Source of the DNA: a virus
Strand: one strand, 5' to 3'
DNA: 24,114 nucleotides
IMG/VR virus record: IMGVR_UViG_3300033183_000086
Coordinates: 1-24,114 of that record
The notes under the pieces were generated by a model. The model was not told the DNA's origin and did no database searches. It was given only the letters and a program-made list of their open reading frames with translations. Each line of letters begins with the position of its first letter. The stretch's first letter is position 1. Below, piece by piece: positions 10,965 to 21,452 of the stretch. Made by a program: the position numbers and the translations under genes.

Positions 10965-11117
10965 AATGTTACGGAAATCAAGGTTTCCTTAACATTGTCA
11001 CATCCCTGCCGTTTGACCGAGACTAGGCTGGGTTACAAAACCGTCTCTCATATCCTGTCTTAGGGTGACAGGAAATAAGTACCTCCACCATTTCCCTGAT
11101 GGTTCTACTTATTTTTT
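10965..11117 (+). ncRNA. Structured psbA 5' leader with four stem-loops (PhotoRC-type candidate)
   Basis: The leader starts with a hairpin right at the predicted 5' end: 10965-10977 pairs with 10984-10996 (13 positions, one C/T mismatch, 6-nt loop). Next, GAGAC (11019-11023) and GGTT (11031-11034) pair with AACC (11039-11042) and GTCTC (11043-11047). CCTGTC (11054-11059) pairs with GACAGG (11067-11072). Last, AAATAAGTA (11073-11081) pairs with TACTTATTT (11106-11114), enclosing ACCAT/ATGGT, and a T run follows to 11117. PhotoRC RNA motifs are known in psbA leaders of cyanobacteria and cyanophages; whether this matches that family needs a covariance-model search. The last hairpin plus T run, 8 nt before the ATG, resembles an attenuator. 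Confidence 0.6.
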
Positions 11118-20627: not shown

Positions 20628-20656
20628 TTGCCTATATAAAGCTCAAAGGGTATACT
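20628..20656 (+). promoter_or_regulatory. Candidate sigma70-like promoter
   Basis: TTGCCT (20628-20633), 17 nt, TATACT (20651-20656). It lies in the 154-nt gap before the 60-aa gene at 20674. A TATATAAAG stretch inside the spacer adds AT-rich character. It is weaker than the promoters at 13253 and 10923. Confidence 0.4.
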
Positions 20657-20673
20657 GCCCTTACGTTCATCCT

Positions 20674-20856
20674 ATGATCTTACCTCTACTACTGGCATTG
20701 TCCGTACCAGAGCCATCACTGATGACTTGTGATCAGTTTGAGTGGTTAGTTGAGGGAACTTTGGAAACAAAATCTCTTTCTATTTCGGAAAAGATTTATT
20801 TTATCCAGAGTTATGCTAGATGGACAGATCCATCATGTTTTGAGGAAGAAAAATAG
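20674..20856 (+). CDS. 60-aa small secreted protein
   Basis: ATG 20674 is chosen because a signal-like segment follows directly (MILPLLLALSVPEPS); the longer in-frame extension to 20587 would cover the promoter. The mature part is acidic with two Cys (MTCDQFEWLVEGTLET, SCFEEEK). Its TAG shares its last base with the riboswitch-like element. Function unknown. Confidence 0.6.
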   Translation: MILPLLLALSVPEPSLMTCDQFEWLVEGTLETKSLSISEKIYFIQSYARWTDPSCFEEEK

Positions 20857-20957
20857 GACGCAAGTAGGACGACGCGGAACGGATCGTTCATCGGGAAACC
20901 GACGCAAACGCCGCCCGAAGGAACGGGATCTAACCAATCTCATTTCTTTGGAGAAAT
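20856..20957 (+). ncRNA. Glutamine-riboswitch-like (glnA / Downstream-peptide) RNA with SD-masking hairpin
   Basis: Conserved blocks of this RNA class are visible: GGACGCAAGTAGG (20856-20868), CGTTCATC (20885-20892) and CCGAAGGAACG (20915-20925). CGTTC pairs with GAACG (20921-20925) as P1, and CGG-GAAA-CCG forms P2. The class binds glutamine in cyanobacteria and phages, and often precedes short ORFs. Here the GGACGCAAGTAGG block lies before P1, not inside it, while P1 encloses a variant (GACGCAAACG), so it may be a tandem or permuted copy. ATTTCT (20942-20947) pairs with AGAAAT (20952-20957), with part of the GGAG ribosome-binding site (20950-20953) in the loop, a plausible expression platform. 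Confidence 0.65.
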
Positions 20958-20960
20958 CTC

Positions 20961-21089
20961 ATGTCTAAAGTCGTTTACCGTGGTCAAGCTTACGATACCG
21001 AAGTTCGTAAGCAACAACAGGCCCAACAACAACCTCAACAGTACAACGAGACCTATCGTGGTATCAAGTATGTTAAGGAGGGTAAGTGA
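20961..21089 (+). CDS. 42-aa YRG-motif peptide (DUF4278-like), riboswitch-controlled
   Basis: GGAG at 20950-20953 lies 7 nt before the ATG. Two copies of a Y-R-G-x-x-Y motif (VYRGQAYDT at 5-13 and TYRGIKYVK near 32-40) flank a Gln-rich linker (QQQAQQQPQQ). Short proteins with this motif are common in marine cyanobacteria, where they are grouped as DUF4278. It is the small ORF expected downstream of a Downstream-peptide RNA. Its role is unknown; nitrogen-status response is inferred from the RNA. Confidence 0.75.
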   Translation: MSKVVYRGQAYDTEVRKQQQAQQQPQQYNETYRGIKYVKEGK

Positions 21090-21199
21090 TGCAGAAACTC
21101 AATTTCCTTCAACTCATTAAAGAGAAGAAGCAAAAAGAAGATCGCCGTCACAAAGCCGAACTCTGCATGGCAGGTAACTGCCAGGTGGTGAAAAAATGA
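21089..21199 (+). CDS. 36-aa basic mini-protein
   Basis: Overlaps the YRG gene stop (TGATG), with GGAGG upstream inside that gene. Highly basic helix (KEKKQKEDRRHKAE) with two Cys (CMAGNC) at the end. Could bind nucleic acid or metal. No family recognised; likely co-translated under the same riboswitch. Confidence 0.55.
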   Translation: MQKLNFLQLIKEKKQKEDRRHKAELCMAGNCQVVKK

Positions 21200-21282
21200 T
21201 TCCGTTAATTAGTGGGATCGTTTTTGGTTCAACTGCCTTCATTCTTTTGATCTATGCGGAAGTTCTATTACTGAATAGGTAA
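21196..21282 (+). CDS. 28-aa single-helix membrane peptide
   Basis: ATGA with the previous gene. One hydrophobic helix (LISGIVFGSTAFILLIYAEVLLL) ending in NR. No family recognised. Stop overlaps the next ATG (TAATG). Confidence 0.5.
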   Translation: MIPLISGIVFGSTAFILLIYAEVLLLNR

Positions 21283-21437
21283 TGGAAAACTATCGATATC
21301 ACTATGATGATATGGATAAAGACAACAGGCCACCAGCTTGTTATCAACTAACGTACAGAGGTTGTAACTACTGGTCATGTTATCTCATTCGTTTGGATGA
21401 GTGGTTTGACAAAATCTTCGATTTGAAGGGGGACTAA
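21282..21437 (+). CDS. 51-aa mini-protein with one YRG motif
   Basis: TAATG overlap upstream. An acidic Tyr-rich start (MENYRYHYDDMDKDNRPPACYQ), then LTYRGCNYW, a single copy of the Y-R-G-x-x-Y motif seen in the 42-aa peptide, then a Trp/Asp-rich end. Three Cys. Its TAA sits in the loop of the terminator hairpin. It is the last gene of the riboswitch unit. Confidence 0.6.
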   Translation: MENYRYHYDDMDKDNRPPACYQLTYRGCNYWSCYLIRLDEWFDKIFDLKGD

Positions 21438-21452
21438 TGTCTCCCTTTTTTT
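21426..21452 (+). terminator. Intrinsic terminator of the riboswitch unit
   Basis: AAGGGGGAC (21426-21434), TAAT loop, GTCTCCCTT (21439-21447) with one G-T pair, then a T run to 21452. The stop codon of the 51-aa gene is in the loop. Confidence 0.9.

Follow-up and report, generated by a model that had tools for sequence, protein, structure and literature searches.

A putative cyanophage glutamine riboswitch with interlocked half-modules and small protein genes in its P2 arms

Upstream of a small YRG-peptide gene, a stretch of viral DNA 24,114 nt long (IMG/VR record IMGVR_UViG_3300033183_000086, hereafter the window) carries what is probably a phage glutamine riboswitch of new architecture, in which half-modules interlock, genes lie in P2 arms, and the RNA would toggle between two small proteins. 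Its two modules, A and B, are not independent copies; a domain-swapped double aptamer is well supported by comparison of relatives, because a long-range "linchpin" base pair covaries between the modules and because the P3 helix is formed between them. In the proposed fold, an outer P1 would join the 5′ strand of A to the 3′ strand of B and an inner P1′ the 3′ strand of A to the 5′ strand of B, and P3 would be common to both. Such interlocking would create a canonical glutamine-I site and, probably, another that lacks loop E. Short genes ride in the P2 arms, the window having one, in P2a. Comparative evidence supports the pairings between modules, the placement of ORFs in the arms, their coding nature and the promoter (Table 1).

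Table 1. Features of the element, in window coordinates
Feature	Position	Strand	Basis
Sigma-70-type promoter TTGCCT, 17 nt, TATACT	20628-20656	+	-10 box spacing statistics
Predicted transcript start, aptamer 5′ end	~20662-20664	+	promoter position
Module A P1 5′ strand (A5′) CGUUC; partner B3′ 20921-20925 (outer P1)	20664-20668	+	element parse; topology via linchpin covariation
Module A 5′ half CGTTCATCCTATG	20664-20676	+	sequence
P2a 5′ strand UCCUAU, includes A and U of nested AUG	20670-20675	+	element parse
Nested ORF, 60 aa, within P2a arm; phrog_13397 relative; conserved C19, C55	20674-20856	+	
P2a 3′ strand AUAGGA, includes UAG stop of nested ORF	20853-20858	+	element parse
GGACGCAAGTAGG block	20856-20868	+	sequence
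Core A ACGCAAGUA: linchpin C20861 (partner G20926), loop-E 5′ strand AGUA 20863-20866	20858-20866	+	linchpin Watson-Crick in 337/337 listed elements
P3 5′ strand GGACGACG; partner 20909-20916	20867-20874	+	inter-module complementarity, compensatory variants
A3′ strand GAACG; partner B5′ 20885-20889 (inner P1′)	20877-20881	+	
Linker GAU; G20882 is site 2 linchpin partner of C20905	20882-20884	+	Watson-Crick in 320/337 listed elements
Module B P1 5′ strand (B5′) CGUUC	20885-20889	+	element parse
CGTTCATC block	20885-20892	+	sequence
P2b hairpin UCGG-GAAA-CCGA, short arm	20891-20902	+	element parse
GACGCAAACG block	20901-20910	+	sequence
Core B ACGCAAA with linchpin C20905	20902-20908	+	linchpin comparison
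P3 3′ strand CGCCGCCC	20909-20916	+	inter-module complementarity
CCGAAGGAACG block	20915-20925	+	sequence
Loop-E 3′ strand GAA 20917-20919 and P1 3′ strand (B3′) GAAGGAACG, then linchpin G20926	20917-20925	+	cmscan, linchpin comparison
Alternative hairpin GAAGGAA-C-GGGAU / AUCUC-A-UUUCUUU, ends at GGAG	20917-20949	+	-10.1 kcal/mol; predicted expression platform
Shine-Dalgarno GGAG of YRG ORF	20950-20953	+	sequence
YRG peptide ORF, 42 aa, DUF4278-like	20961-21089	+	profile matches
36-aa ORF overlapping YRG ORF stop, probably next gene of operon	21089-21199	+	weak phrog_545 match

The gene content of the window is cyanophage-like, with psbA, plastocyanin, a cyanophage outer-membrane protein, a PBP-like protein and ThyX. 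Immediately 5′ of psbA lies a PhotoRC-II RNA (10990-11086, 56.7 bits), which is ordinary for cyanophages. An 86-nt block of the element matches 361 phage records, cyanophages nearly throughout; the conserved part of these matches starts at the GGACGCAAGTAGG block, 5′ of P1 and directly before the second CGTTCAT. Pattern scans of IMG/VR, combined with phage and genome loci, yielded at least 337 distinct elements, and, judged by sequence, the same design is found across hundreds of related viruses. A glnA RNA had been annotated previously in one of them, S-CREM1 (PMC9964418). A search for a host origin of the composite in 84,980 cellular genomes gave only six contigs, several of which, from single-cell or metagenome assemblies, are plausibly of phage origin, and none was found in plasmids. 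At locus L004 in P-RSM6, a manA RNA (739-909, 158 bits) lies a little downstream of the YRG gene.

A complete module runs in the order CGUUCAUC, P2 hairpin, ACGCAAGUA, P3 strand, CGGAACG. The GGACGCAAGTAGG-type block can be recognized as the second half of such a module, because in S-PM2 and S-CREM1 CGTTCATC and a short hairpin precede it. A gene opens a P2 hairpin in P-RSM6 and in the single-cell virus AG-345-L05; in the window, a 60-codon ORF fills the P2a loop, and CGUUCAUCCUAU at 20664, 190 nt upstream of GGACGCAAGTAGG, is the 5′ half of module A. The first-pass annotation had located the core blocks, the GGAG and the 42-aa ORF correctly, and comparison with related cyanophages finds its region conserved, the block 5′ of P1 included. 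It missed the 5′ half of module A because the gene separates the halves. Its suspicion of a doubled or permuted core was sound, but the supposed degenerate tandem copy proves to be the 3′ half of a complete module that a nested gene divides in two.

Nesting of genes in the P2 arms is widespread, S-RIM2 and S-ShM2, phages of Synechococcus WH7803 and WH8102 respectively, being among the carriers. In the first 210 elements the lengths of the P2 loops are bimodal, 9-46 or 185-233 nt for the A arm and 10-64 or 137-244 nt for the B arm; in the full set of at least 337 elements, at least 104 A arms and at least 136 B arms are long. An arm-filling ORF is contained in 235 of the 240 long P2 loops listed, its AUG lying in the P2 5′ strand at an offset of 3-7. 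The reading frames stop at a few fixed sites: the P2 3′ strand or a short distance 5′ of it, the UAA within AAGUAAG, and the UGA or UAA in the 3′ strand of loop E. Many B-arm ORFs draw the codons for their final residues (DAND, DAKAD) from the riboswitch core itself. The P2b position, a short hairpin in the window, holds a second nested ORF in other phages, and a Shine-Dalgarno GGAG is present in the linker of 61 of the 136 listed elements with a B-arm ORF, as against 1 of 201 without one (p 1e-27); within the 5-bp P3 type, the figures are 60/64 and 0/25. ORF state, mapped on the downstream-peptide tree, changes at least 53 times in the A arm and at least 51 times in the B arm, so ORF and plain hairpin often swap.

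The nested ORFs are well supported, by their pattern of substitution, as real genes under purifying selection. Changes at codon positions 1, 2 and 3 number 7416, 3824 and 13626, and median dN/dS is 0.22-0.25 for pairs above 50% identity. Most of the ORFs fall into two sequence families, one of which occurs in both arms, and their products have one invariant and one near-invariant cysteine. The protein nested in the window matches phrog_13397, and 33 of 46 relatives match phrog_504. AlphaFold2 predicts a confident helical hairpin for it (pLDDT 86). A fold search of this model against the PDB found no solved relative (best E-value 3.8); its best matches among viral proteins are uncharacterised and come mostly from cyanophages, and the search of solved structures returned short helical matches only, chiefly Protein A domains. 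The YRG peptide is present as the gene that had been proposed to be under control, but it is not the sole one, a second protein being encoded inside the aptamer.

In 230 of 279 strong promoter matches the -10 box begins 13-16 nt 5′ of the first CGTTC, shuffled upstream sequence scoring far lower. Transcription would thus start at the first P1 strand, leaving the A-arm ORF a leader of only ~10-15 nt. Downstream of the aptamer, the YRG ORF matches phrog_5049 (3.6e-12) and PF14105 (DUF4278) at 20.9 bits, below the cut-off of 25.3; downstream ORFs belong to one family in 191 of 192 cases, and 270 of the 337 listed elements show the M..YRG/YRC start. Many elements of the 5-bp P3 type have a first downstream ORF that begins MNTL. 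The 36-aa ORF that follows in the window contains ..KAELCMAGNCQ.., and S-PM2 has a similar ORF after its YRG gene. Farther on, a 51-aa ORF with LTYRGCNYW (21282-21437) is possibly a second YRG protein of the same unit, and a GGGGGAC/GTCTCCC stem with a T run is seen at ~21428-21452.

Two arrangements of the expression platform can be distinguished. In the G-C linchpin class, an anti-Shine-Dalgarno sequence CUCUUUAA, which lies downstream of B3′ and starts from the linchpin C, pairs with UUAAGGAG (pairing probability of the Shine-Dalgarno 0.93, MFE z -2.85). In the C-G class, to which the window belongs, the alternative hairpin adjoins the GGAG without covering it (class mean z -1.15). The TTTCT/AGAAA hairpin that the first-pass annotation placed over the GGAG exists but is short; the 12-bp alternative hairpin is stronger, uses the P1 3′ strand, and is exclusive with P1. 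Formation of the aptamer would loosen or free either arrangement, as expected of an ON switch. An extra conserved hairpin, ACGGAUC-(compensatory stem with a GAAA/GUAA-like loop)-AAGGU, is found in 16 of the 337 listed elements (L017, L023, L064, L098 and others), directly 3′ of B3′ and before the ribosome-binding site of the next ORF.

It is possible to envisage how such an RNA might work. At low glutamine, ribosomes would load on the nested ORF near the transcript 5′ end and hold the P2 and P1 strands open; the free P1 3′ strand, or the anti-Shine-Dalgarno in other phages, would then pair beside or over the YRG ribosome-binding site and repress the YRG ORF. At high glutamine, the interlocked fold would bury the nested AUG in P2 and free that site. 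In this way the RNA would switch output from one small protein to another, the DUF4278-like one, and translation of the nested gene and folding of the sensor are probably mutually exclusive. Glutamine binding by this sequence, occupancy of site 2, which way the RNA switches and what the two proteins do all enter the scheme as predictions. The fuller proposal is offered tentatively, at somewhat short of even chances: an aptamer that encloses the genes under its control, translation competing exclusively with the ligand-stabilised fold, two ligand sites made cooperative by the strands that they have in common, and two classes of small effectors toggled by host glutamine.

The opposite direction of control, a whole-operon OFF switch, is unlikely, although some observations favour it. 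Here the glutamine-bound fold would silence the nested ORF or ORFs and, with coupled translation lost, also the YRG ORF. P2 buries the nested AUG, and nested stops often lie in aptamer helices or the core, so that terminating ribosomes would hold the downstream structure open. However, host glutamine-I and -II riboswitches turn on DUF4278 genes upon glutamine binding (PMC6316151), and those preceding such genes have been described as ON switches (PMC6316151; PMC6698751). In the glutamine-synthetase inhibitor IF17 of hosts, DUF4278 makes up the N-terminal portion (PMC6316151). The anti-Shine-Dalgarno helix of the G-C class, moreover, starts from the linchpin base, which fits ON control.

A second alternative, of distinctly lower probability, is that the conserved RNA is a mere translational scaffold for a small-ORF operon, supplying start and stop contexts, and that the glutamine response has been lost. 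Glutamine binding by phage elements of this kind is indeed a prediction, loop E is absent from site 2, and the stop codon and last codons of the B-arm ORFs overlap core bases. Against such a role, both arms are short and devoid of nested ORFs in 136 of the 337 listed elements, where the same core is kept. At site 1 the linchpin, a pair belonging to the ligand-bound fold, is intact in every listed element.

Evidence for the domain-swapped fold comes from that linchpin. At site 1, the base in core A and the base after B3′ form a Watson-Crick pair in every one of the listed elements, 240 times as C-G and 97 times as G-C (p 3e-87), in counts that include related sequences. A tree of the YRG protein encoded downstream lessens the effect of kinship, though not fully, and is built on a short protein; on it the interlocked pair covaries in 13 of 13 supported independent changes (sign test, p 0.00024). 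At site 2, where the base in core B faces the base after A3′, about five of seven changes on this tree agree and none is opposite. Pairing within one module, of the core A base with the base that follows A3′, displays no Watson-Crick covariation, either in the direct comparison or on the tree. The P3 strands of the two modules were complementary in every equal-length combination of the first comparison (21 distinct), compensatory types being present (AGUCG/CGACU, AGUCA/UGACU, AGCCGACU/AGCCGACU, AGCCGACA/UGCCGACU, GGACGG/CCGCCC and GGACGACG/CGCCGCCC); the larger set includes a few combinations of poorer pairing or unequal length. In most elements P3 has A·C or C·A mismatches at fixed positions, possibly A+·C wobbles, whose orientation switches between types. 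At locus L117 (6525-6990) three consecutive modules, A-A′-B, are found; A′ and B share a P3 (AGUCA/UGACU), and the P3 strand of the first module has no obvious partner.

Earlier it had been suggested that covariation be sought in P1 and P2, and the outcome differs between the helices. P2 of ORF-bearing B arms covaries clearly (91/117, against a shuffled mean of 48 and maximum of 68) and that of ORF-bearing A arms modestly (61/81, shuffled maximum 59). The P1 strands are invariant, and variants of A3′ sought in IMG/VR were not found; P1 gives no covariation because it never varies, and its partners are deduced from the linchpin and P3. Could the element then consist of two ordinary tandem glutamine aptamers, each with its own P1, which afford more digital control and have genes between their halves by accident? 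Tandem glnA RNAs were noted in 2010 by Weinberg et al. (PMC2864571), the four P1 strands are all identical or complementary alike, cmscan lists the modules separately, and thermodynamic models permit the fold. The interlocked fold is not preferred over two separate P1 helices (190 versus 147 elements, median 0.3 kcal/mol), and the unconstrained minimum for the window has separate helices. Since the energy models show no preference for the interlocked fold, both folds may be populated, and the separate-P1 fold may be a real alternative state. Nevertheless, independent tandem aptamers are very improbable: each module would be complete with its own P3 and linchpin, whereas module A lacks the P3 3′ strand and the GAA loop-E strand, module B lacks the AGUA strand, the P3 strands of A and B pair mutually, and the linchpin covaries between modules and not within them.

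With regard to class, cmscan places RF01739 (glutamine-I, glnA) at 20883-20929 with 30.0 bits, under the gathering cut-off of 35 (E 0.0074 in the window, 9.8e-5 in the local stretch), and scores relatives at 20.9-34.9 bits. The earlier proposal of a glutamine-riboswitch-like RNA before a small YRG peptide in a cyanophage was right. Of the two classes then named, glnA stands, on loop E, P3 and the linchpin, and Downstream-peptide falls away. The window element displays a P1/P2/P3 three-way junction with the loop-E strands AGUA and GAA, a long-range linchpin closing P1 (of two pair types among the listed elements), and association with DUF4278 via the downstream YRG family. It is predicted to bind glutamine and to be a cyanophage version of the glutamine-I riboswitch, built as a domain-swapped double aptamer that encloses genes. 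The RF01739 model can span neither a nested gene nor the interlocked insert, which would explain why such elements escape standard covariance models or score too low. That the RNA is instead a glutamine-II riboswitch is scarcely credible: it has CGUUCA, GACGC and GGAACGG blocks in common with that class, and module A of some relatives matches RF01704 weakly (best 33.1 bits, cut-off 33), but RF01704 has no match in the window, nor in the local stretch at E up to 10, loop E and P3 fit the class I junction, and the pseudoknot pairing inside one module shows no linchpin covariation.

Searches of open-access literature found no report of genes inside riboswitch loops, of interlocked modules, or of cyanophage glutamine riboswitches with such an architecture. 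If the reading is correct, this would be, as far as that literature shows, the first ligand-sensing RNA to carry protein genes in its aptamer arms; it would also be a double aptamer with naturally swapped domains, occurring in ocean viruses that are widespread. Phage infection would be tied to a host glutamine signal through DUF4278, the module employed by hosts around glutamine synthetase, and competition of ribosome and metabolite for one RNA fold would become testable.

Comparison with known systems places the element closest to glutamine-I (RF01739). The two have in common the order CGUUCAUC, P2, GACG[G/C]AAGUA, P3, GAAGGAACG, the loop-E strands, a long-range pair after P1 (PMC6698751) and a downstream DUF4278 gene (PMC6316151); closure of P1 by such a pair is general to glutamine riboswitches I and II (PMC6698751). 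In the phage RNA, by contrast, P3 has been opened and a second half-site inserted, P1 is made between two modules, the P2 arms enclose protein genes, and the linchpin of the window is C-G where the Rfam consensus has G-C. Glutamine-II (RF01704) resembles the element in the P1 and core letters (GACGC with GGAACGG) and in a small downstream ORF but is a pseudoknot of ~60 nt without loop E. Tandem glnA riboswitches likewise have two successive modules in one leader (PMC2864571). Known tandem riboswitches are, however, two complete aptamers, whereas each phage module is incomplete alone. Group I and II introns offer a parallel for nesting, with ORF-bearing loops in which a peripheral loop of a structured RNA holds a protein gene; unlike them, the phage RNA is presumably a ligand-sensing mRNA leader, and its start and stop codons lie inside helix strands or the core.
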